From NCBI GenBank assembly GCA_023705905.1, contig BPTK01000010.1, positions 1 through 36,904 of the forward strand: DNA of 36,904 nucleotides. The letters are read 5' to 3'. Below, piece after piece: positions 3,088 to 36,904 of the stretch (position 1 is the first letter of the stretch; each line of letters begins with the position of its first letter). Below the pieces are notes generated by a model. The model was not told the DNA's origin. It searched no databases and was given only the letters and a program-made list of their open reading frames with translations. Source of the stretch: Candidatus Heimdallarchaeota archaeon (GTDB lineage Archaea > Asgardarchaeota > Heimdallarchaeia > Heimdallarchaeales > Heimdallarchaeaceae). The position numbers and the translations under genes were made by a program.

Positions 3088-3465
3088 TTAAACTGTCTCC
3101 ATTACTTCATTGATGACATATCCCAGACTAGAAAATCTAAAGGGTTTTGTGACGTATTTAGATATTCCTTTTTCATATGCGTTAATCTCAGATTGACTTG
3201 TTGAAGAAATAAAAATTATTTTTGTTCTATTAATCCAATCCAAGTCGTATAAATCTTCAAGTAATTCTAAACCATTCTTCATAGGCATATGATAGTCTAA
3301 AATCAATATGTCTGGCTTTTTATCTTTAAAATTGAAGTATAAATCAATTAAAGCTTCTTCCCCATTGAAGGATTGTCCTACAATTCGGTGCCCCATTTTC
3401 GTTAAGTACATAATATATAATTCTTGAAGGTTTTCGTCATCTTCTACGATGTATATGTCTGCCAT
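3088..3465 (-). CDS. Stand-alone response regulator receiver protein (CheY-like)
   Basis: 125 residues, a single receiver domain and no output domain. The acidic pocket E8-D9-D10, the phosphoacceptor D57 in ILDYHMP, the Ser pair at 87-88 in FISSTS and K107 in VTKPF are all present, so phosphotransfer competence is expected. The start ATG overlaps the stop of the upstream HTH gene by one base (TAATG), which implies translational coupling. No histidine kinase is encoded in the window. Its tight linkage to a dual-HTH regulator suggests that phosphorylation of this protein modulates that regulator, but this is inference. The function as a two-component receiver is certain; the partner is not. Confidence 0.92.
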   Translation of the reverse strand: MADIYIVEDDENLQELYIMYLTKMGHRIVGQSFNGEEALIDLYFNFKDKKPDILILDYHMPMKNGLELLEDLYDLDWINRTKIIFISSTSQSEINAYEKGISKYVTKPFRFSSLGYVINEVMETV

Positions 3466-4703
3466 TATTTCCTTTCCTCTTTGATCCCTACTTTTCTAAA
3501 TTGCTTCTTAGCAATACTTTCTTGGACACTTTTGACAACCCCTTCAAACATCCATTCTGTGTCCTCCCTCCATTTCTGATTTTTAATATTGTAATTGTGA
3601 ACATAAAATCTATATTTCACTGCATTATACCCGAAACTATCCATCATGTAGAATGATAGATTCTCGTAATGATTTCTCATCCAATATGACATTCTTATCT
3701 GATAATATGGTGGTAATGATAATGTGATGAAAAGATCTTTACCTAAATCTTCCATGTAAATACTAAATGGTGGTCTAAACTCACTTAACACTCTAAATAA
3801 CCTTGATTTTTCTTCTTCTTTGATATCCCTGATGATATAGGAGAATCTTATGAACATCTCAAAGTATTTTCTATTTACTCCCCACCAATAATCTTCAATG
3901 AAATTATCTGTAATGAAATGGTATTTCTTCTTAAAATCCAAATATATTGCATTTTCTGTGCGATCTTCTGCATAAAATTCTTCTAAATACGGTCTGAAAC
4001 CTTCCGGAAGAACATTAAAATTTTCTTTTTCCTTTGGCAATGTTAGATACTTCTTATACTCTTGACAAAGCTCACTCATAGGAATTCTCATGTTGATTGT
4101 TATGTCTCGTAGTATAAGCAGATGAATTGGATGAAACGTATCCTCTGAAACTTCTGCTGATACATTAATTTCTGTCTTAGGTTTTCCAGTCAACTTTTTA
4201 GAAAAATATCCCTCTATATCAAATTCATCAAGATCTGTAATGTTGTTGTGAACTGGTTGAGTATAATAAGCTCGCTCCCCCGCTGATTTATAAATCTGAT
4301 ACTGTGAGCAGAACTCCCTCCCTACCATGAATTCTAGAAACGACTCCAAATGCCTCAGCGTTCCCTTTGGGATATCAAAAACTGTAAATAATCCATACAT
4401 ATGCCCAAAAAGTCTGTTTCTAGAGTTTGTATATGGATGAATGTCACACGAAAGTTCAAGAAATGAAATTTGTTCAACAGTTGTTGTTTTGAAGATCACA
4501 ACATATCTTTCTAATCCCATTTTCTCCGGATTGAGCGTAGAATGAACCTCTCTGATTCTATCTGCATCCTTGAGATATTCAACTTTTCTTATCATTGTTT
4601 GAGTTGATATCCCAAGTTTTCTAGCATGTCCACTAAAGGAATCTAATGGATAATTTTCGAGAATTCGAAGTATTTCAAGTATCTCTCTAGAGAAACCTTT
4701 CAT
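3465..4703 (-). CDS. Long dual-HTH (Lrp/AsnC-like N-terminus) transcriptional regulator, paralogue of 34455-35531
   Basis: About 412 residues. The first 60 form a winged helix (ILRILENYPL...ARKLGISTQTMIRKVEYL) followed by a wing and strand like those of Lrp/AsnC proteins (LNPEKMGLERYVVIF). A second HTH-like segment starts near residue 200 (LILRDITINMRIPMSELC). The C-terminal third contains a conserved aromatic block (SLPPYYQIRMSYWMRNHYENLSFY) also present in the right-hand paralogue. The shared blocks GLERYVVIF, SRNRLFG.MYGLF..F.IP and PPYY...W show homology along the whole length. The ATG at 4703 has AGGTGA at 4710-4716; a GTG at 4712 sits inside that ribosome site and is less likely. It lies downstream of a secreted FDPPG protein gene and is coupled to a response regulator. 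The target genes are unknown. Confidence 0.8.
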   Translation of the reverse strand: MKGFSREILEILRILENYPLDSFSGHARKLGISTQTMIRKVEYLKDADRIREVHSTLNPEKMGLERYVVIFKTTTVEQISFLELSCDIHPYTNSRNRLFGHMYGLFTVFDIPKGTLRHLESFLEFMVGREFCSQYQIYKSAGERAYYTQPVHNNITDLDEFDIEGYFSKKLTGKPKTEINVSAEVSEDTFHPIHLLILRDITINMRIPMSELCQEYKKYLTLPKEKENFNVLPEGFRPYLEEFYAEDRTENAIYLDFKKKYHFITDNFIEDYWWGVNRKYFEMFIRFSYIIRDIKEEEKSRLFRVLSEFRPPFSIYMEDLGKDLFITLSLPPYYQIRMSYWMRNHYENLSFYMMDSFGYNAVKYRFYVHNYNIKNQKWREDTEWMFEGVVKSVQESIAKKQFRKVGIKEERK

Positions 4704-4752: not shown

Positions 4753-5214
4753 TTATGGTCCTGGATCAACTCCTCCTCCCACAGGATAGTCTGGGTCTGC
4801 CCCTGGTGGGTCAAAAGTCAACATGTCATAGTAAAACCCATATTGGACTTCAGTATAAATGAAGAACCAAGCATATAAATCATACCAACCGCTTTCAAAT
4901 GCTACATTGATGAAATAGAATTTGTACAATATTTCAGTTTCTGTTCTGATATGATTATCTCTATATATAGAGTGAAGAATTTCTCCATCAAATTTCAAAG
5001 TAGCCTTAAAAATCAAATTCTTTGTGCCTTCAAACATGGTGACGAGAATTTCTGCATATACATCATCCTCTTTCCCGTCATCATCAAGATCACAATATTC
5101 CGCATGCTCAATATTTATCCCATAGGTACTGCTTGCCTCTACTCCCAGATTGGGAACAAGCAAAACACCCATCATCAAAATACCTAACAATATTAATACT
5201 CTTTTAGATTTCAT
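4753..5214 (-). CDS. Small secreted protein with FDPPG C-terminal motif (module copy 1)
   Basis: 153 residues from the ATG at 5214. Residues 1-28 are a signal peptide (MKSKRVLILLGILMMG... ending near VEASS). The mature part is predicted beta-rich. It has an acidic loop DLDDDGKEDD at residues 42-51 resembling dockerin/EF-hand type calcium loops, an ESGWYDLYA strand, and a terminal FDPPG motif (134-138) before a Gly/Pro/Asp tail. A longer frame to 5295 exists, but the TATA box at 5244-5253 predicts transcription start near 5221, so the upstream start would not be transcribed. Protein 35548-36003 has the same length, the same motif position and the same fold pattern. It sits upstream of a dual-HTH regulator in both copies. 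I do not recognise a named family; an extracellular ligand-binding or adhesion role is a guess. Confidence 0.75.
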   Translation of the reverse strand: MKSKRVLILLGILMMGVLLVPNLGVEASSTYGINIEHAEYCDLDDDGKEDDVYAEILVTMFEGTKNLIFKATLKFDGEILHSIYRDNHIRTETEILYKFYFINVAFESGWYDLYAWFFIYTEVQYGFYYDMLTFDPPGADPDYPVGGGVDPGP

Positions 5215-5242
5215 TAATATCAAGTAACTATATTTTCCAATG

Positions 5243-5253
5243 AATATATAAAT
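5243..5253 (-). promoter_or_regulatory. TATA box of secreted FDPPG gene
   Basis: On the minus strand ATTTATATATT lies about 30-40 nt ahead of the ATG at 5214 and predicts a leader of about 7 nt. It rules out the start at 5295. Confidence 0.55.
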
Positions 5254-5636
5254 ATGTGGAAAAGTTGGTCGTTTGTGCTGTTTTGTCCGATTCAATTCAA
5301 GTTACTCGATCTTGAGTGGAGTTTGTTGCTTTAAGAAAATGATATCCTACAAATACTCAAAATATTTTTTTCAAATCAGAAAATCAGTTGCTAACATGTC
5401 TAGGCAATGATTAACAATTCGTTATATTGTGAAATCTTATAGTTTCACTTAAAAATCATGAACAAAACCCGTTCAAATAAAATGTTAAAAGAAGTAATGC
5501 AACTCAATTTATTTAATACTAGAAGAGTGAGTTTAACAAAAGAATTCTCCATTTATGTGTGATTCAATATTTTTTGAGATAATTTGTATGGGAAACACAG
5601 ATAAACCTTAATTTATCAGAATCAAGTGAAATACTG
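5254..5636. other. Divergent intergenic region
   Basis: About 380 nt of very AT-rich DNA between the divergent secreted-protein and M20 peptidase genes. No ORF of merit, tRNA or repeat array is visible. CTTAATTTATC (5606-5616) is a plausible TATA element for the peptidase and would give an mRNA starting almost at the ATG (5637). The middle of the region (5340-5560) shows nothing recognisable. Confidence 0.5.
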
Positions 5637-11611: not shown

Positions 11612-11725
11612 GAGCAAAAATCTTATGATGTTATGATGAATAAATCTTCCGCATGGTTCCATAAATGTAGAGAGTAGGTTAGAGAGTTTGTAGGTTTAAA
11701 TAAGGAAGTCTAGAATAGAATAGTG

Positions 11726-12925
11726 ATGCTTGTCAAACGGACTGAACGGATAAAAGTGAAGCAGAGTTTCACGCTTATGCAGTTAGCGAGACAGAGCAAA
11801 AATTTGTATAATTATGGAAATTATATAATCAAGAGACAACTCAACAATAGTAAATACATAACCTCAGAATACGAATTAGTGAATATAGTACGGTACCATC
11901 CGTGCTATACAGAATTTATCGCCCACTCAGCACAACAGACGATAAAATTTCTTGTAAAGAACTGGAAAGCATATTTTCGAGCAAAGAAAGAGTACAAGAA
12001 GAACCCACAAAACTTCCGCGCTCAACCCAATGAACCAAAATATAAGAAGAAACGAGGATTCCACACCATCTACTTTACCGCTAACCAAGTAAAGATCAAA
12101 GAAGGGGGATGGCTACATTTTCCGAATAAAGTAGGATTGAAAGTGAAAACAAGGTTAGAGAAAGGATTGAAAATCAACCACGTCCGCTTACTACTTAAGG
12201 GGACATGTTTCATCGTGGAGATTATTTATGAGAAAGAGCTGGATTCATCGATCCATCATCTTCAAGCAAAAAATATCTTAGCCATAGATTTAGGGGTGAA
12301 TAACCTCTTGGCCTGTGTGAGTAACATCTTTTTTCCTTTCCTCATCAAAGGAAGGAAACTGAAGGCTATCAATCAATGGTACAATAAAGAACGTTCCTGT
12401 CTCCAATCTATCTACGATTTACAGGGAGTTGAAGAGTATGGACCGCGGATGAAAAAACTGCTCGATAAGCGCTATCAACGAGTGGAAGATTATCTGCATA
12501 AGGCTTCAAGAATCGTCATCGACCAATGTGTGAAACACAACATTGGTACCATCGTCATCGGGTACAACAAAAACTGGAAACAGCAGAGCAAGATGGGGAA
12601 GCGAAATAATCAGACCTTTGTCACCATCCCCTTCTTAACCTTGGTACGCAAAGTCCAGTATAAAGCCGAAGAAGTAGGGATAAAGGTTATCTTGACAGAA
12701 GAAGAGTATACTTCCAAATGTTCATTTTTGGATAATGAGCCAATCAAAAAACATACCACGTATCTGGGGAGAAGGGTGAAAAGAGGTCTGTTCAAAAGTA
12801 AACAAGGTCTCTTATTTAATGCTGATTGTAATTCAGCAGGTAATATTGGTAGAAAAATATTCCCGGTGGTGTTCACCTACGGGACAGTGGATGCCGTGAG
12901 TCATCCTCACTGTTGGACTGTGTAG
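11726..12925 (+). CDS. tnpB: TnpB RNA-guided nuclease (RuvC-type), variant active site
   Basis: 399 residues from the ATG at 11726 (a GTG at 11723 is also possible). The N-terminal region matches TnpB/OrfB (SKNLYNYGNYIIKRQL; SAQQTIKFLVKNWKAYF). RuvC-I AIDLGVNN carries D188, and the third RuvC motif NADCNSAGNIGRKIF carries D367. At RuvC-II the usual glutamate (as in IVIEDL) is absent: the sequence is IVIGYNKNWKQ with Gly279. A run of three glutamates at 325-327 (TEEEYTSKCSF) precedes the place where the zinc finger should be; only one Cys remains there and no CxxC pair. The IGYNKNWKQ type forms a recognisable TnpB subgroup, so the gene need not be dead. TnpB proteins use an omega-RNA made from the element's right end to cut target DNA and help retain the element. 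Confidence 0.9.
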   Translation: MLVKRTERIKVKQSFTLMQLARQSKNLYNYGNYIIKRQLNNSKYITSEYELVNIVRYHPCYTEFIAHSAQQTIKFLVKNWKAYFRAKKEYKKNPQNFRAQPNEPKYKKKRGFHTIYFTANQVKIKEGGWLHFPNKVGLKVKTRLEKGLKINHVRLLLKGTCFIVEIIYEKELDSSIHHLQAKNILAIDLGVNNLLACVSNIFFPFLIKGRKLKAINQWYNKERSCLQSIYDLQGVEEYGPRMKKLLDKRYQRVEDYLHKASRIVIDQCVKHNIGTIVIGYNKNWKQQSKMGKRNNQTFVTIPFLTLVRKVQYKAEEVGIKVILTEEEYTSKCSFLDNEPIKKHTTYLGRRVKRGLFKSKQGLLFNADCNSAGNIGRKIFPVVFTYGTVDAVSHPHCWTV

Positions 12926-17527: not shown

Positions 17528-18109
17528 ATGAGTGCTTTTAATTCATTTTCCCAGTGGTTAAAAAGAAAACTAAAAACTGAGAAAAGAGCTAAAATTCTCA
17601 TTGTTGGCCTTGATTCAGCAGGAAAAACCACCCTGACAAAGTACATGAATACAGGGGAATATCAAGCTGATACTTCTCCGACAATTGGTCAGAATATTGA
17701 TTCAATAAACTTCGAAGGATGGGATATAACCACAATTGATGTAGCTGGTCAACAACAGTTTAGATTCCTGTGGGAGGTCCATTATCCCGGTTGTGCTGCA
17801 GCTGTTTTTGTAATTGATGCTGCCGATATCGAAAGATTACCCGAAGCTCGCGATATTTTAAGAACTCATGTTTTTAATAATCCTCATTTAGAAGAAGTTC
17901 CCACTCTGATTTTAGCAAACAAGCAAGATTTACCTGATGCTATTCAAGCACCCTTATTGATCCAATTATTAAATCTCCATTTAGAGTTGAAAGATAGAAC
18001 TTTTTCAGTGTTCGATTGTAGTGCACTTAATGGTAAAGGTGTCCATGAAGCTTTTACATGGTTAGTTAACCAATTAGAAATGAGTAAAAATGGTGGAACT
18101 TCATTCTAG
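17528..18109 (+). CDS. Arf/Sar-like small GTPase
   Basis: 193 residues with all G motifs: G1 GLDSAGKT (27-34), G2 Thr52 in SPTIG, G3 DVAGQ (71-75), G4 NKQD (131-134) and G5 CSAL (164-167). The GLDSAGKT and SPTIG forms and the G3 context place it with the Arf/Sar/Arl branch rather than Ras/Rab. The N-terminal 20 residues are basic/amphipathic (FNSFSQWLKRKLKTEKR), as in Arf proteins, but the second residue is Ser, so no myristoylation site. Expanded sets of such GTPases are a hallmark of Asgard archaea; in eukaryotes the family controls vesicle coat recruitment. The G3 Gln75 needed for GTP hydrolysis is present. No GEF, GAP or roadblock/longin protein is seen nearby; the partner and role are unknown. 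Confidence 0.93.
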   Translation: MSAFNSFSQWLKRKLKTEKRAKILIVGLDSAGKTTLTKYMNTGEYQADTSPTIGQNIDSINFEGWDITTIDVAGQQQFRFLWEVHYPGCAAAVFVIDAADIERLPEARDILRTHVFNNPHLEEVPTLILANKQDLPDAIQAPLLIQLLNLHLELKDRTFSVFDCSALNGKGVHEAFTWLVNQLEMSKNGGTSF

Positions 18110-30727: not shown

Positions 30728-30766
30728 ATGCTGCTAAGTATATTAGGAAATGAAATAGGTACTCAC

Positions 30767-31450
30767 ATGACCGCTCAAAACTTCATTGATTATGAACCAG
30801 ATGTAATAAAAATAGTACGCGATGACGAAGTATACCAAGTACTATTTGATCCCGTTTATGAACCAATATTTGTGATTCTAAGAGACGGCCCCATGACAAT
30901 TGATGAAATAACAGTTCGTTATAATGACTATGTAGAGTTACAAGGACGCGAGAAAAATTTAGATCCCGAGGTGATAGAAAAAAGTAAAAAATCTGAGATG
31001 ACTATCTACCGTTACGTGAAGGATCTAGAAAAAGACAATATTCAATTAGTAGCACAAGCCGGACGAAGGATTGAAAAAGGAAAAACAACAACAAAAGCTC
31101 TCTATTCTCGAACTGCGAAACTTTTCTATCCAGTTCTGAAAACTGCAGATTATTGGACTGAAAAAACCGCAGACAAGTTTGTGGATATACAAGCCTCCTT
31201 GTTACAATTACATCTAAAAAATACTAAAGTTTCAAAACCTTTGCTTAAAGAACTTCTCAAAAAGCTAGAAACTGAAGCAAGTGAAATAGGAGCTAAAGTG
31301 TTTGAAGAAAACAATGAAATAGCAACCGAATTGATAAAGGATTTAACCTTTAAAGAGGTCGATAAACATCTTAGTCAATTGAGTTTACTAATAATGCTCT
31401 TTGAGTCAGAAAAATACATTGAAGATTTCGATAAAGTGTTGCGAAACTAA
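30767..31450 (+). CDS. Winged-helix transcriptional regulator, paralogue 1 of 3
   Basis: 227 residues from the ATG at 30767. The winged helix lies in residues 25-105: PIFVILRDGPMTIDEITVRY, a longer insertion than in its relatives (VELQGREKNLDPEVIEKSKK), then TIYRYVKDLEKDN as recognition helix and AGRRIEKGKTTTKALYSRTAK as wing. The C-terminal half is helical (two long helices LLKELLKKLETEASEIGAKVF and ELIKDLTFKEVDKHLSQLSLL), probably for dimerisation. The blocks ILRDGP.T..E, TIY.YV.DLE, AG.RI..G and SRTAKLFYPV recur in the genes at 32054 and 32707. It lies head to head with two tiny ORFs. The target is unknown. Confidence 0.8.
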   Translation: MTAQNFIDYEPDVIKIVRDDEVYQVLFDPVYEPIFVILRDGPMTIDEITVRYNDYVELQGREKNLDPEVIEKSKKSEMTIYRYVKDLEKDNIQLVAQAGRRIEKGKTTTKALYSRTAKLFYPVLKTADYWTEKTADKFVDIQASLLQLHLKNTKVSKPLLKELLKKLETEASEIGAKVFEENNEIATELIKDLTFKEVDKHLSQLSLLIMLFESEKYIEDFDKVLRN

Positions 31451-31463
31451 ATAAGCGTTTTGA

Positions 31464-31515
31464 GAAGAAAAAAAGGAAAAGAGTTTTTGAAAAAAAACAG
31501 TATTTTTTTACTCTT
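31464..31515. terminator. Bidirectional A/T-tract hairpin between convergent genes
   Basis: AAGAGT (31479-31484) pairs with ACTCTT (31510-31515), and inside them A8 (31490-31497) can pair with T7 (31503-31509). Oligo-T occurs in both directions, so this hairpin can terminate the wHTH gene and the convergent small gene. Confidence 0.45.
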
Positions 31516-31543
31516 GGTGATATCTTTTCCTGTAATCATAATT

Positions 31544-31801
31544 TTACATGATGAGAGAAAAAACAGTTCCTTTTACGCGACACTTGTCACAAGGAACGTT
31601 TATTTCTCCCGGGGGTAATTTTCTCTTCACTTGTCTTTTGCTTTGAGTAGATGTCGCAGAATGAGACTGTTCTTTAACGCGAAGAGACCGTCCATTATTT
31701 CTTGAGGAAAAATAAGCGTCAGATTCAGCCAGATAAAATACGTTGGTAACGTTATCTATCAAACTTGATTTCTGGTTTTTCCGCGATCTACTCATTGTCA
31801 T
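31544..31801 (-). CDS. Small basic protein with single CxxC motif
   Basis: 85 residues from the ATG at 31801, which has AGGTGG 6 nt upstream. Basic and Ser-rich (MSRSRKNQKSS; STQSKRQVKRKLPPGE). Near the C-terminus VPCDKCRVKG gives one CxxC pair, so a zinc site would need a dimer or partner. It sits between the first and second winged-helix paralogues on the opposite strand. It could be a nucleic-acid-binding accessory protein; no family recognised. Confidence 0.5.
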   Translation of the reverse strand: MTMSRSRKNQKSSLIDNVTNVFYLAESDAYFSSRNNGRSLRVKEQSHSATSTQSKRQVKRKLPPGEINVPCDKCRVKGTVFSLIM

Positions 31802-31985
31802 ATTTTCCACCTATAACTCAAACATACTGAAGAGTTAGCAAACACATTTGCTTCCACTGTGTAAGCTTCCCGTGAGATATTCTCATAGGTTAAGAACACT
31901 ATTTATTTTAAAATATATAAAGTTTTTGTAAAAAATATGCTAAATTTCGAAAATTTGTAGTGTTGATTTCATAAAAAAACAATAA

Positions 31986-31998
31986 CTTTTTTAAATGC
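31986..31998 (+). promoter_or_regulatory. TATA box of wHTH genes 2 and 3
   Basis: CTTTTTTAAATGC predicts transcription start near 32018 and a leader of about 36 nt with AAAGG before the ATG at 32054. It serves both overlapping genes. Confidence 0.45.
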
Positions 31999-32053
31999 AT
32001 GAGAAAGATTAAAGATATTAAGACAAAATAAGTAATTATACAAAGGTTTTATC

Positions 32054-32710
32054 ATGGAAACTCGAGATTTGATAAGCTTCACTCCAAAAAATGTTATGGT
32101 AATCGATCAAAAGAAGCAGTTCGATTTACTATTTCTACCAAAAAATGTACAGAAGTTTACTCCAATTCTTCGCATTTTACGTGATGGACCTTTAACTCTT
32201 AAGGAACTTGAGTATAAGTATAATGCAATTGCTGATGAACCTAAAAAGAAGAATACTATTTACAGTTATGTTCAAGATTTGGAAGAAGCTGGTTATGTCA
32301 CCAAAGCTGGTCAGCGTATCTCTCCTGGACATACTTTCTGTGAATGGTTGTATGATCGCACCGCTAAGCTCTTTTATCCTGTGATTGTTTCTGATGAATA
32401 CTTCAAATCAAAGGAAGCGTCAGCTGCTTTAGAAAAAACTCGTGAATTACTATCTCTTTATTTAGAACAACCTGCACCAGATTTCAACAAACTAAAGGAT
32501 GTCGTTTTTAGAACTAACCAGCAAGCTCAAAGAGTTGTTGGTGATGTGTTCTCAAAACATAGTGATGAAATTGCTGAGATCACAAAGGATCTCTCTTTTC
32601 GACAGTTAGACAAAATATGTAATGTTCTAGAAATGCTTATGGTTGTTCTTCATTTTCAAGATAAATCTGGTGATTTGTTAGGGGAACTTGGAATTGGAGT
32701 TAAGACATGA
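32054..32710 (+). CDS. Winged-helix transcriptional regulator, paralogue 2 of 3
   Basis: 218 residues. The winged helix at 35-105 has TPILRILRDGPLTLKELEYKY, TIYSYVQDLEEAGYV and AGQRISPGHTFCEWLYDRTAK; the helical C-terminal half resembles that of paralogue 1 (EIAEITKDLSFRQLDKICNV against EIATELIKDLTFKEVDKHLS). It shares an ATGA stop/start overlap with the third paralogue, so the pair is cotranslated and a heterodimer is plausible. AAAGG precedes the ATG. Targets unknown. Confidence 0.82.
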   Translation: METRDLISFTPKNVMVIDQKKQFDLLFLPKNVQKFTPILRILRDGPLTLKELEYKYNAIADEPKKKNTIYSYVQDLEEAGYVTKAGQRISPGHTFCEWLYDRTAKLFYPVIVSDEYFKSKEASAALEKTRELLSLYLEQPAPDFNKLKDVVFRTNQQAQRVVGDVFSKHSDEIAEITKDLSFRQLDKICNVLEMLMVVLHFQDKSGDLLGELGIGVKT

Positions 32711-33342
32711 ATACTAAAGAATTTTTGGATGAGAAGTATACCGTTAAACCTTTACAAATCCTTGATGATGAATCTCTAATAACATTATTGGATGACCCTA
32801 AGTATGCTCCTATCATGAGAATATTGAGGGAAAAACCATTTACTATTAAGGAAATTCGTGCAAGATACAATGCCAAACGAAAAAAACCAAAAGAAGAAGT
32901 TACAATAAGACAGCACATAAAAATACTTGAAGATTCAGGTTTGATTGTTAAAGCAGGCCAAAGTATAACTGAAGGCAAAATAGCTGCTGAGAATCTTTAT
33001 GGTAGATCTGCTAGATTTTACTTTCCAGTAATTTTATCGGAGTCTTTTTGGGAATCAGATGAGAACCAGTTTATTACTGAAAAAGTACTTCAAATACTTA
33101 ACTTTGTAGAGACAAAGAACAAACCTACAATTGAATCCCTCAGAAAACTGCTTCATTCTATCTATTCAAAAACAGAGTTAGAGATTGCCCAAGTTTTTGA
33201 AAAGTTTGAGGAAGAAATTTCTGAAAGTCTCTCTGATAGCCCGTTTAACGAAATTCGGCACATAGCTAATTTCATGATGTTGCTTGTTTTATTAACTAAT
33301 TCCAGTATCTATAAAACAGATTTAGAAGATAACTTTTATTAA
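32707..33342 (+). CDS. Winged-helix transcriptional regulator, paralogue 3 of 3
   Basis: 211 residues. The winged helix has APIMRILREKPFTIKEIRARY, TIRQHIKILEDSGLIVKAGQ and the wing SITEGKIAAENLYGRSARFYFPV; the C-terminal region ELEIAQVFEKFEEEISESLS parallels the other two. Its ATG lies within the ATGA overlap with paralogue 2. The sequence has diverged most from the family blocks (REKPF in place of RDGP), suggesting a distinct target or ligand. Confidence 0.82.
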   Translation: MNTKEFLDEKYTVKPLQILDDESLITLLDDPKYAPIMRILREKPFTIKEIRARYNAKRKKPKEEVTIRQHIKILEDSGLIVKAGQSITEGKIAAENLYGRSARFYFPVILSESFWESDENQFITEKVLQILNFVETKNKPTIESLRKLLHSIYSKTELEIAQVFEKFEEEISESLSDSPFNEIRHIANFMMLLVLLTNSSIYKTDLEDNFY

Positions 33343-34454: not shown

Positions 34455-35531
34455 TTACAATCGTTTCTTAATCCATTCTAAAGGTAGTTCTAGAACTTCA
34501 GTTTTGGATGCTTTCCATTCCTTCTTTTCCGTATTATATGAATCACCATAAAAATAGTATAATTTGCTCTTGTAATGATCTAGTCTATAAAAATCGAGTT
34601 TTTCTGAGATGGACCACAAAAAATTGCTGAATTGTGATGTATAGGTTGGAGGTATGTTCATTCTCCAAATAAAACCATCCGAGAGTAAATTGAATCCTGT
34701 ATCGAATGGAATAGGTGATGTTTTCAAAATGTTAAATAGTTTTGTTCTGTTGATTTCTGAGCATTTTCCTCTAAATAGAACCAGATCGACTGGTTGAACT
34801 TTTGCTCTTCTATAAAGCAGAACATAGTCCGTTACGCTTTCATTTAGAAAAGCCATTCTTCTTGAAATCCTTACAGGTGTAACTTGAAATTTTTCTGCAA
34901 GATCATTGTGCGCTTGCTTAGCATTAATAGTCATCTCTCTTAATAATTTCAAGTCTAGATTTTGAATTCTATTAAGGACACTTATCTCCTGTTCTAACCT
35001 AGTATCAATTGTGTCAGAAGCTTCTTCATAATTTTCTTTCCATGGTTGGATATCCCAAACCCATTCACCTTTCTTATTATCATAAAACTCGAATTCAGGC
35101 GTAGTACTCGTTTTGAATTCCTCTGCTTGAATTTTTTCAAACTCTTCTATTATGTTTAAATCTTTCAATTTTATGAATAAAGCTTCTAGATAGCGAATTG
35201 AGTTATTCGGAATGTTAAATTGTAGAAATAACCCCTGATACGTACCCAAAATTCTATTTCGATAACTCGTGAAATCATGGAAATCTGCAAGTTTTTCCAA
35301 TAATTCTATTTTTGCAAGATCTGCAACTTTGACTAAAAACGATACTGTTTCAAGACCAAGTGTTTCTGGTTTAAATTTGGCTCTAATCCCCTCAATATAT
35401 TCATTCTCAACAAGATACTGATAGCGTGATTTTGCTGTTTTATCAGTAATTTCCAAAGCTACAGCTATTTGTGAGAAATTAGCTTTTGGATGTTTTTGTA
35501 AGAATTGAAAAAGTGCATAATAGGGAATCAT
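34455..35531 (-). CDS. Long dual-HTH regulator, paralogue of 3465-4703
   Basis: 358 residues. The N-terminal winged helix is YALFQFLQKHPKANFSQIAVA, then EITDKTAKSRYQYLVENEYI, followed by the Lrp-like strand FKPETLGLETVSFLVKV. A second HTH lies near residue 200 (LKLLREMTINAKQAHNDLAE, then FQVTPVRISRRMAFL). The C-terminal NIPPTYTSQFSNFLWSISEK and LDFYRLDHYKSKLYYFYGD block matches the SLPPYYQIRMSYWMRNHYEN region of the left-hand paralogue. GTG at 35546 is in frame; ATG at 35531 has GGTTGAG just upstream. It starts within 20 nt of the secreted FDPPG gene's stop, so they are one operon. Unlike the left copy there is no receiver gene after it. Confidence 0.8.
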   Translation of the reverse strand: MIPYYALFQFLQKHPKANFSQIAVALEITDKTAKSRYQYLVENEYIEGIRAKFKPETLGLETVSFLVKVADLAKIELLEKLADFHDFTSYRNRILGTYQGLFLQFNIPNNSIRYLEALFIKLKDLNIIEEFEKIQAEEFKTSTTPEFEFYDNKKGEWVWDIQPWKENYEEASDTIDTRLEQEISVLNRIQNLDLKLLREMTINAKQAHNDLAEKFQVTPVRISRRMAFLNESVTDYVLLYRRAKVQPVDLVLFRGKCSEINRTKLFNILKTSPIPFDTGFNLLSDGFIWRMNIPPTYTSQFSNFLWSISEKLDFYRLDHYKSKLYYFYGDSYNTEKKEWKASKTEVLELPLEWIKKRL

Positions 35532-35547
35532 AAATCTCAACCGCACT

Positions 35548-36003
35548 TTATGTTATTCTTATTCCTATGTATGGGTCTCCTTCACTTCCACCTGGTGGGT
35601 CAAATACTAATACATCAGTAACAGCAAACCAGCCATTATTATTAGAAACAAGTGTTGCTTCAACTGTGTAGTCTCCTGACTCAGTTGCATAGTTATAGAA
35701 TGTAAACTCAAGAGTAAGGGTCTCTAAAGATGTTATTATGTGAAGAATAACAATTTCTTCCTCACCATTTGGATTAATCAAGGTAACTTTGAGATAATAA
35801 TTTTCAGTGTTTGAATCAGTTTGTACGGTAACAGTTATGGTTGTAAAAATATCAAAACCAATGTAGTAGGCATCGTTAATTATGACATTGTGGATCTCGG
35901 TATCCATGCTTCTAAGTCCTTGAGTGGATACTGCACCTAATGAAATGCAGAATGTTGATAAGAGAAGAAAAATTAGCGATAATGTACGAATCTTTTTCAT
36001 CAT
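35548..36003 (-). CDS. Small secreted protein with FDPPG motif (module copy 2)
   Basis: 151 residues. Signal peptide at 1-28 (MMKKIRTLSLIFLLLSTFCI...). The mature part is beta-rich with Asn/Thr-rich strands, a FYNYATESGDYTVEA block that corresponds to FINVAFESGWYDLYA of copy 1, and FDPPGG at 134-139. It lacks the DLDDDGKEDD loop of copy 1. The length and motif position are the same within two residues. It lies 79 nt downstream of the caspase-like protease gene; AGGGAAAATTTCT before the ATG and a possible TATA element (ACTTAAATAAT near 36020) suggest it can also have its own promoter. It may be a ligand-binding or protease-associated secreted protein; no named family. Confidence 0.75.
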   Translation of the reverse strand: MMKKIRTLSLIFLLLSTFCISLGAVSTQGLRSMDTEIHNVIINDAYYIGFDIFTTITVTVQTDSNTENYYLKVTLINPNGEEEIVILHIITSLETLTLEFTFYNYATESGDYTVEATLVSNNNGWFAVTDVLVFDPPGGSEGDPYIGIRIT

Positions 36004-36082
36004 AGAAATTTTCCCTAATTATTATTTAAGTTTATCCGAAAAATTTCAAAAAAAAGAAGTAGAGAAAACTCTACCTAGGTGA

Positions 36083-36883
36083 TTAAAGAAAGAAGTCAAT
36101 AGCAGTATTACCATCGAACTCTAGAGGTGTATCCCCACCATCGAATGGATAAACTGATGATGCGTAATCAAAAGTTGCTTCCAAGGATGCTGTTCCACCG
36201 AATTGTCCAATGAGTGTATCTTCTAGGAAATAATACGTCCATGCACCATTCTCATATGCTGTCATATCATATCCGTATCCATCGTCTGTACAAGTAGTTG
36301 TTAGGTATACTTTAGCTGCGTTTGCATTTAGCATTACTTCATTCATTCCTCCTGCATAGCAGTGATCTAGAAAGATGAATGTATTACTGATTGAGGGAGC
36401 CATCATACTTTGTAGTTCTGAATCATAGATTAATCCGTCTTCTCCAAGTTCTCCTCCAGAAGTGTCCCACATACACAATACTTGAACATAGATTCTGTCT
36501 CTTCTACGTTGAGCGCCGATGTTTATATGAGATCCATGTCCTGAACTTATGAATGCAACAATATCATTTTCATCTGCTTGTGCTATGATTGTTGCCCAAG
36601 CGTTTTTCACGTTGTATTCAGTTGCTAATCCATCATGTTGAGGATAGTTTGCAGGATTTGAATCTCCTAAAAGTGTAATGTCATATTCTAGTGGACTCAA
36701 ATAGTTATACCAATCAGTGGCATCTTCATCACAGAAAGAAAGATCGCTAATAACTTTATAATCACTAATTCCTATAATCAGTGCGTATTTATCTACTGGA
36801 TCTTCCAGACCTTGAACAGCTGAAATTGTTGTGACCAATATAACCAAAGTAATGATTCCGAATAAAAATGCTTTTTTCTTCAT
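36083..36883 (-). CDS. Secreted caspase-like (clan CD) cysteine protease
   Basis: 266 residues from the ATG at 36883 (a GTG at 36892 lies in the ribosome-site sequence). Residues 1-24 are a signal peptide (KKKAFLFGIITLVILVTTIS). The caspase fold starts at KYALIIGISDY, followed by DEDATDWYNYL. The catalytic His116 is in FISSGHGS and Cys175 in FLDHCYAGG, both with the typical beta-strand before them. The arrangement fits family C14 (metacaspase-like) or the related C13 group, and the length indicates the catalytic domain alone. In an archaeon this is a protease acting outside the cell or on the outer membrane face. It is first in a probable operon with the FDPPG protein and the dual-HTH regulator. 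No inhibitor or pro-domain is visible. Confidence 0.88.
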   Translation of the reverse strand: MKKKAFLFGIITLVILVTTISAVQGLEDPVDKYALIIGISDYKVISDLSFCDEDATDWYNYLSPLEYDITLLGDSNPANYPQHDGLATEYNVKNAWATIIAQADENDIVAFISSGHGSHINIGAQRRRDRIYVQVLCMWDTSGGELGEDGLIYDSELQSMMAPSISNTFIFLDHCYAGGMNEVMLNANAAKVYLTTTCTDDGYGYDMTAYENGAWTYYFLEDTLIGQFGGTASLEATFDYASSVYPFDGGDTPLEFDGNTAIDFFL

Positions 36884-36904
36884 TTTACTCACTTTTGTCG
36901 GGTA

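Follow-up and report, generated by a model that had tools for sequence, protein, structure and literature searches.

A recurrent gene pair of Heimdall-type archaea encoding an exported FDPPG-tailed protein and a fused tandem Lrp/AsnC-type regulator: a candidate peptide-signalling module

Genomes of Heimdall and Hod archaea throughout, of some Loki and Thor archaea and, rarely, of Bathyarchaeia encode a two-gene module in which a small exported protein with a C-terminal FDPPG tail (hereafter FD) is followed on the same strand by a cytoplasmic regulator made of two fused Lrp/AsnC-type units. We propose tentatively, and with rather less than even confidence, that this module may be a self-contained extracellular peptide-signalling circuit, an archaeal analogue of the RRNPPA systems that would be built from unrelated parts. 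Population-density signalling in archaea comprises only three cases in the list given by a 2025 paper, none of which uses a peptide signal (PMC12240190). In Heimdall-type archaea, a many-copy pair that links an exported tail to a cytoplasmic regulator is a candidate, open to test, for cell-to-cell or self sensing; should the signal interpretation fail, there remain an undescribed, near-obligate association between a Pfam-less exported family and a fused Lrp subfamily, and a link between secreted caspase-like proteases and particular regulators.

The window, that is, the whole stretch of DNA analyzed here, is one entire contig of 36,904 bp (G000:C10) from a 3.74-Mb Heimdallarchaeaceae-type MAG, so that the location of the module "at both ends of the window", as a preliminary description of this DNA put it, has no meaning beyond contig ends. 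The two FD-regulator pairs reported in that description were recovered on the minus strand (table 1), with FDPPG at residues 134–138 of both FD copies (153 and 151 aa) and the Ca-type loop DLDDDGKEDD in copy 1 only. The two FD proteins match each other in pairwise BLASTP (E = 4e-6) and each matches the FD family profile at about 1e-41 to 1e-45, which makes their homology unambiguous; the two regulators are likewise homologous (E = 2e-23). By their sequences, the window copies are diverged paralogues from separate clades of a large family and not the products of a recent duplication. Overlooked in the preliminary description were the caspase gene upstream of FD copy 2, the response-regulator gene downstream of regulator copy 1, the duplication within the regulator and its identity as a fused tandem Lrp/AsnC protein, and the secreted proteases that recur beside the pair.

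Table 1. Features of the two module copies and of adjoining genes in the window
Feature	Position	Strand	Basis
FD copy 2, exported, 151 aa: signal peptide ~1–28, eight-strand beta-sandwich, C-terminal FDPPGGSEGDPYIGIRIT	35548..36003	-	Family profile; AlphaFold pLDDT 90
FD copy 2, conserved C-terminal tail, residues 134–151	35551..35604	-	Orthologue identity, tail versus body
Regulator copy 2, tandem Lrp/AsnC-type; alternative GTG start 35546	34455..35531	-	Pfam HTH_AsnC and HTH_24; AlphaFold pLDDT 94.7
Regulator copy 2, first winged HTH	35373..35519	-	HTH_24, residues 9–47; AlphaFold model
Regulator copy 2, first RAM-like domain with conserved H-(PY)T-xYR-R motif	35127..35351	-	Alignments; model
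Regulator copy 2, second winged HTH	34812..34961	-	HTH_AsnC, residues 192–227; model
Regulator copy 2, second RAM-like domain	34581..34787	-	Model; hhalign of halves
Promoter dyad GAAATTTTTC-N23-GGAAAATTTC flanking TATA-like box before FD copy 2; candidate operator	36005..36047	-	Inferred from close-orthologue conservation
Secreted caspase-like peptidase C14 (HG and DHC motifs), gene before FD copy 2	36083..36892	-	Pfam PF00656, E = 1.2e-8
FD copy 1, exported, 153 aa: DxDxDGxxDD loop, tail FDPPGADPDYPVGGGVDPGP	4753..5214	-	Family profile
FD copy 1, Ca-binding-type loop DLDDDGKEDD (family consensus; lost in copy 2)	5062..5091	-	Alignment
FD copy 1, conserved C-terminal tail	4756..4815	-	Orthologue identity, tail versus body
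Regulator copy 1, tandem Lrp/AsnC-type; alternative GTG start 4712	3465..4703	-	BLASTP; tree
Promoter dyad TTCCA-N17-TGGAA flanking TATA box of FD copy 1	5235..5261	-	Conserved in six orthologues
Response-regulator receiver protein downstream of copy 1, kept in orthologues	3088..3465	-	Pfam PF00072

FD is a small protein that combines a predicted Sec signal peptide (called by eye and from hydrophobicity), an eight-strand beta-sandwich, and the C-terminal FDPPG tail. In the AlphaFold model of copy 2 (pTM 0.73), strands 7 and 8 are separated by FDPPGGSEGDP, and the last strand of the tail is predicted to be folded. According to the alignment, the DxDxDGxxDD loop is present in most members of the family. 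No Pfam family fits FD across 51 members, NCBIfam contains no FD family, and Foldseek searches with FD returned only weak FnIII-like matches. A BsuPI proteinase inhibitor assignment was rejected, as the initial match is below threshold (E = 0.051, 14 bits against a Pfam gathering cut-off of 22.9) and a single member of the 51 matches it, weakly, and so was an LPXTG-like sorting anchor, because no transmembrane segment follows the FDPPG motif and sorting tags in tandem are implausible. The earlier suggestion of a toxin-regulator-like unit was not upheld either: nothing toxin-like was found, neither by PADLOC, which gave no match to the FD proteins, nor among toxin families, and only FD, not the regulator, is exported.

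Conservation in FD is higher in the tail than in the folded body. Among orthologues of copy 2, mean pairwise identity reaches 78% after FDPP versus 58% in the body, and among those of copy 1, 77% versus 63%; FDPP itself is invariant. Bathyarchaeial tails are minimal (FDPPGGxxGPxx-end), indicating that what all members share is the DPPG tail and not the last beta-strand. Tails also differ between paralogues of one genome; GGSEGDPYIGIRIT and DPPGGDPDYPIGGG are examples of FD tail peptides. These features bear on a different reading, somewhat doubtful in our opinion, in which FD would be an extracellular matrix or adhesion protein, a Ca-stabilized beta-sandwich whose synthesis the regulator would control through a small ligand, and in which the other partners described below (repeat-type and uvrC-clade) would be further surface proteins. 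The FnIII-like fold, the conserved folded domain, and the Ca-type loop agree with such a role, as do the surface-anchored partner of the uvrC-linked clade and a weak Foldseek and profile similarity to the biofilm scaffold RbmA of Vibrio cholerae, which is likewise a secreted FnIII-like beta-sandwich. However, the RbmA match is not significant (profile E = 0.37; Foldseek E = 6e-3, TM 0.46), RbmA has two FnIII domains and neither an FDPPG tail nor a paired regulator, and a matrix or adhesion role leaves unexplained the higher conservation of the tail, the switch to short tail-like repeats, and the one-to-one pairing of FD and regulator over many paralogous copies.

By using a one-sequence query, we identified the regulator in 66 of 97 Asgard genomes, often in several copies. 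ORFs were called in sixty regulator regions, and upstream of most regulators they included a signal-peptide protein ending in FDPP and a short tail, all of which belong to one family as judged by profile and alignment. Searches with the FD profile alone detected 112 places in the 97 genomes, which are nearly all MAGs with contig breaks; at 99 of these a script found that the following gene on the same strand is the regulator, and re-reading of the 13 exceptions raised the number of adjacent FD genes to 103 (the four added being in G090, G047:C273, G030:C414, and G026:C1), the others corresponding to four contig ends, three convergent or divergent neighbours, one decayed gene, and one weak match. 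The median gap between the two genes is 39 nt, and a genome may hold up to about ten copies of the module. An independent GTDB scan retrieved it from Heimdallarchaeota, Hodarchaeota, Lokiarchaeota, and Thorarchaeota and from four Bathyarchaeota loci, with FD upstream in nearly all cases. In the class Bathyarchaeia, an FD-only search detected FD in 7 of 151 genomes, and a regulator adjoins it at 9/9 loci. The more distant Lrp-like proteins (~370–550 aa) of other Asgard classes have no FD neighbour. Viral contigs and plasmids yielded no relatives of the module, and a mobile-element origin is thus unsupported. The idea put forward from the window alone, of a secreted factor and its cytoplasmic regulator forming a unit, is therefore borne out by adjacency across Asgard genomes, neither the comparison of the copies with each other nor that of their neighbours elsewhere having contradicted it, and database and open-licence literature searches found, as presumed, no described system with this pairing.

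At three loci, FD is decayed (L067, G042:C26), interrupted by an in-frame stop (L061, G018:C274), or not detected (L176, G038:C72), next to a regulator that is wholly or almost intact; these are possible listener-only copies or assembly errors.

On its AlphaFold model (copy 2; pTM 0.89), the regulator is an Lrp pseudo-dimer fused into one chain, in the order wHTH-RAM, linker, wHTH-RAM. Its two halves are homologous (hhalign E = 9e-13), and HTH_AsnC, above cut-off in copy 2, matches 49 of 53 family members at E ≤ 0.1. The RAM-like domains (beta-alpha-beta-beta-alpha-beta) were recognized from the AlphaFold secondary structure and from Foldseek matches to Lrp/AsnC monomers; Pfam gave no RAM match by sequence. 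Alignments revealed a nearly universal HPYTxYRxR motif in the first of these domains, which becomes HxYIRxYNR-like in the regulator clade with a repeat partner. The only PADLOC result for regulator 1, a weak CasR HTH match, was set aside. Lrp/AsnC (feast/famine) regulators, such as PH0140, PH1519, and LrpA, share the winged HTH and RAM-like domain seen in each half, but they are single HTH-RAM chains of ~150 aa, whereas here two units are fused into about 360–490 aa, with extra aromatic segments, the HPYTxYRxR motif, and an obligate neighbour encoding an exported protein.

The best whole-chain Foldseek match, ahead of Lrp/AsnC monomers, is the siroheme decarboxylase NirDL (4ch7; E = 7.6e-10, TM 0.53/0.60), which is the same kind of tandem-fused Lrp-fold pseudo-dimer, and NirdL-like_HTH matches 11 of the 53 members. 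It could be argued on this ground that the regulator is a NirDL-related tandem Lrp-fold enzyme or sensor, and not a transcription factor, with FD as an unrelated passenger. We regard this as very improbable, given an identity of about 10%, scores of 12.6–16 bits against siroheme-decarboxylase equivalog cut-offs of 125–140, halves that match Lrp/AsnC regulators including their HTHs, and recurrent neighbours that offer no haem-biosynthesis context; an enzyme would also leave unexplained why an exported protein is encoded beside it almost without exception.

A regulator clade linked to uvrB-uvrC (L050 [G000:C81], L048, L049, L051, L055, L056, and L172) has another type of partner, an exported protein of 289–303 aa that is membrane-anchored at its C-terminus and lacks the FDPPG tail; its gene adjoins a large one for an ABC-transporter permease-like protein (about 970 aa).

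In the genus of the window genome, a clade of longer regulators (446–491 aa) has no FD. Its place is taken, ~230–380 bp upstream on the same strand, by a protein of 62–142 aa made of a signal peptide and 2–7 tandem repeats of 14–19 aa; the units include GPVEDEPIGAMLPGGA, present seven times in G008, GPDGGYPDEPIGGNFASGG, four times in G003, and DPTGGFPDEPIGGLFKE and GPVDGQTDTPIQGVSDK, three times each in G004 and G002, respectively, besides others. These repeats resemble the FD tails of the clade and not the FD body (compare the repeat unit DPTGGFPDEPIGG with the tail DPPGGDPDYPIGG): in the best case 10 of 13 positions are identical, a value reached by none of 500 shuffles, and nine of ten units give p < 0.07, the one from G001 being the exception. 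In a quickly built regulator tree with SH-aLRT support only, the repeat clade (support 99) is sister (97) to the G021 regulator L187, which is paired with an ordinary FD carrying the tail FDPPGEEEPDTPISVSVSP, and both are nested in a clade (support 100) that includes window copy 1. Because the repeat clade is nested among FD-bearing regulators on this tree, FD is most simply interpreted as the older partner and the repeats as its replacement. As the tail is common to both partner types and is more conserved than the fold, it looks like the active part, that is, a ligand or signal. The self or cell-surface sensing suggested in the preliminary description thus receives support in direction only, through repeat-type partners that point to the tail as the informative part of FD.

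In the window genome, the repeat-clade regulator lies at a contig edge (G000:C47), and its precursor is consequently not seen. There and in G002, a gene for an SBP_bac_5 oligopeptide-binding protein is convergent with the repeat-clade regulator, G002 having a second one on the other side; the window genome encodes seven such proteins. At L096, L153, L156, L158, and L162, a gene for a secreted beta-lactamase-family serine hydrolase is found upstream of the repeat-type precursor, and PF00144 was confirmed in both of the hydrolases tested (L096 and L156).

Of 77 non-redundant modules, 27 have, no more than two genes away, a secreted peptidase of the S8 (18) or C14 (10) family, verified by catalytic motifs with Pfam confirmation of examples; in 24 it flanks the module directly. 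This count replaces an initial 36/77, obtained with home-made profiles, that included Ig-like (Big_7) partners. Given a mean of 9.4 S8 genes per genome, ~1.7% of modules would be expected to have one within 3 kb by chance; secreted subtilisins and caspases are strongly over-represented beside modules, and roughly two modules in three are without a neighbouring protease. The caspase-like gene is directly upstream of FD on the same strand in copy 2 and in the orthologous loci L039–L041 and L045. FD might accordingly be secreted to serve the neighbouring caspase- or subtilisin-like peptidase as an inhibitor, chaperone, or specificity partner, with the regulator controlling the set, an interpretation that would suit the single strand shared by caspase, FD, and regulator in copy 2 and its orthologues and, faintly, the subthreshold BsuPI match. 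We nevertheless consider it unlikely, because most modules lack such a neighbour, the peptidases come from two unrelated families, the folded domain is absent from repeat-type partners, and BsuPI is unsupported across the FD family.

Among six orthologues of copy 1, the promoter dyad is conserved and the remainder of the region is not. The dyad patterns of both copies were picked after being seen, and inverted repeats are not enriched at 78 module promoters (20 versus 16 ± 3 by shuffling), so that the case for the two window dyads is their conservation in orthologues only. These dyads, which surround TATA boxes, suggest autoregulation.

In the signalling circuit that we propose, FD would be exported via its predicted Sec signal peptide, an extracellular protease would free a peptide after FDPP, an oligopeptide transporter would take this peptide up, and its binding to the RAM-like domains, with their conserved HPYTxYRxR motif, would lead the regulator to alter transcription of its own operon and of nearby genes via the dyads around TATA boxes; the modules of one genome would be parallel channels, each with a different tail. 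This reading draws on the regulator directly following FD in both Asgard archaea and Bathyarchaeia, on the two ligand-type RAM-like domains of the predicted cytoplasmic regulator, on a tail that outconserves the body, differs between paralogues, and has its like in the repeats that replace FD, and on the S8/C14 peptidases adjoining modules and the SBP_bac_5 gene beside the repeat-clade regulator. Its most explicit form, which we offer with slightly greater reserve, would be an archaeal quorum-sensing-like ribosomal-peptide circuit with FDPPG-tail or tail-repeat precursors, processing by secreted proteases, re-import, and autoregulating fused Lrp-type receptors, amounting to up to ~ten channels per Asgard genome and convergent with RRNPPA.

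The RRNPPA systems of Bacillota (Rap-Phr, PlcR-PapR, NprR-NprX, and AimR-AimP) similarly have adjacent genes for an exported protein, there a propeptide, and a cytoplasmic regulator, and several pairs per genome; their C-terminal or tandem informative segment, the subtilisin-type proteases implicated in them, and their orphan receptors may have counterparts in the FD tail or repeats, the secreted peptidases beside modules, and the regulators without an intact FD (PMC9765709, PMC11343458, PMC10075063). An RRNPPA precursor may contain up to six tandem copies of the peptide, whose maturation involves extracellular proteases and whose uptake is through the oligopeptide permease (PMC9765709, PMC11343458); bacterial pheromone precursors, too, contain tandem copies that extracellular proteases mature (PMC11343458). 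Orphan regulators beside a decayed FD, as in L067, recall RRNPPA "eavesdroppers" (PMC9765709). However, the RRNPPA receptor is a TPR protein, whereas the proposed receptor of the archaeal module consists of two wHTH-RAM units, and the usual precursor would be a folded beta-sandwich of 110 aa that contains a Ca-type loop. As its regulator has no TPR, the module is not a member of RRNPPA. The Qsp1 peptide of Cryptococcus, which after secretion is imported and works intracellularly via transcription factors (PMC7537855), is eukaryotic and involves proteins unrelated to those of the module, and is thus a functional analogue only.

Several observations count against the signalling reading. The whole FD fold is conserved, which would be needless in a mere precursor, and in copy 2 the last strand of the tail is predicted to be folded. 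The known ligands of RAM domains are amino-acid-sized, and the invariance of FDPPGG limits the specificity of channels. In a Mantel test, regulator distances correlated better with FD-body than with tail distances, the co-divergence of FD and regulator being weak. Furthermore, a peptide-binding protein gene is adjacent in two genomes only, the majority of modules are without a protease neighbour, the partner of the uvrC-linked clade is membrane-anchored and tailless, and module promoters show no excess of inverted repeats.

Other genes were observed around the modules. The stand-alone receiver gene downstream of copy 1 overlaps the end of the regulator gene and is kept after the orthologues L089, L090, L092, and L093, which suggests a link to two-component signalling. 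Directly beside modules L039, L040, L046, L052, L059, and L077 is a gene for a 96–107 aa CxxC (zinc-ribbon-like) protein (IVPVDSKEEE..MYCKNCK). Three paralogous genes (211–240 aa, HTH-regulator-like by eye) are clustered near copy 2, at positions 30728–33342 of the window, and members of this family also cluster near modules L038, L039, L059, and L077. The window further contains a gene for a TnpB-like transposon nuclease (11723–12925) and one for an Arf-like small GTPase (17528–18109), typical of Asgard genomes.
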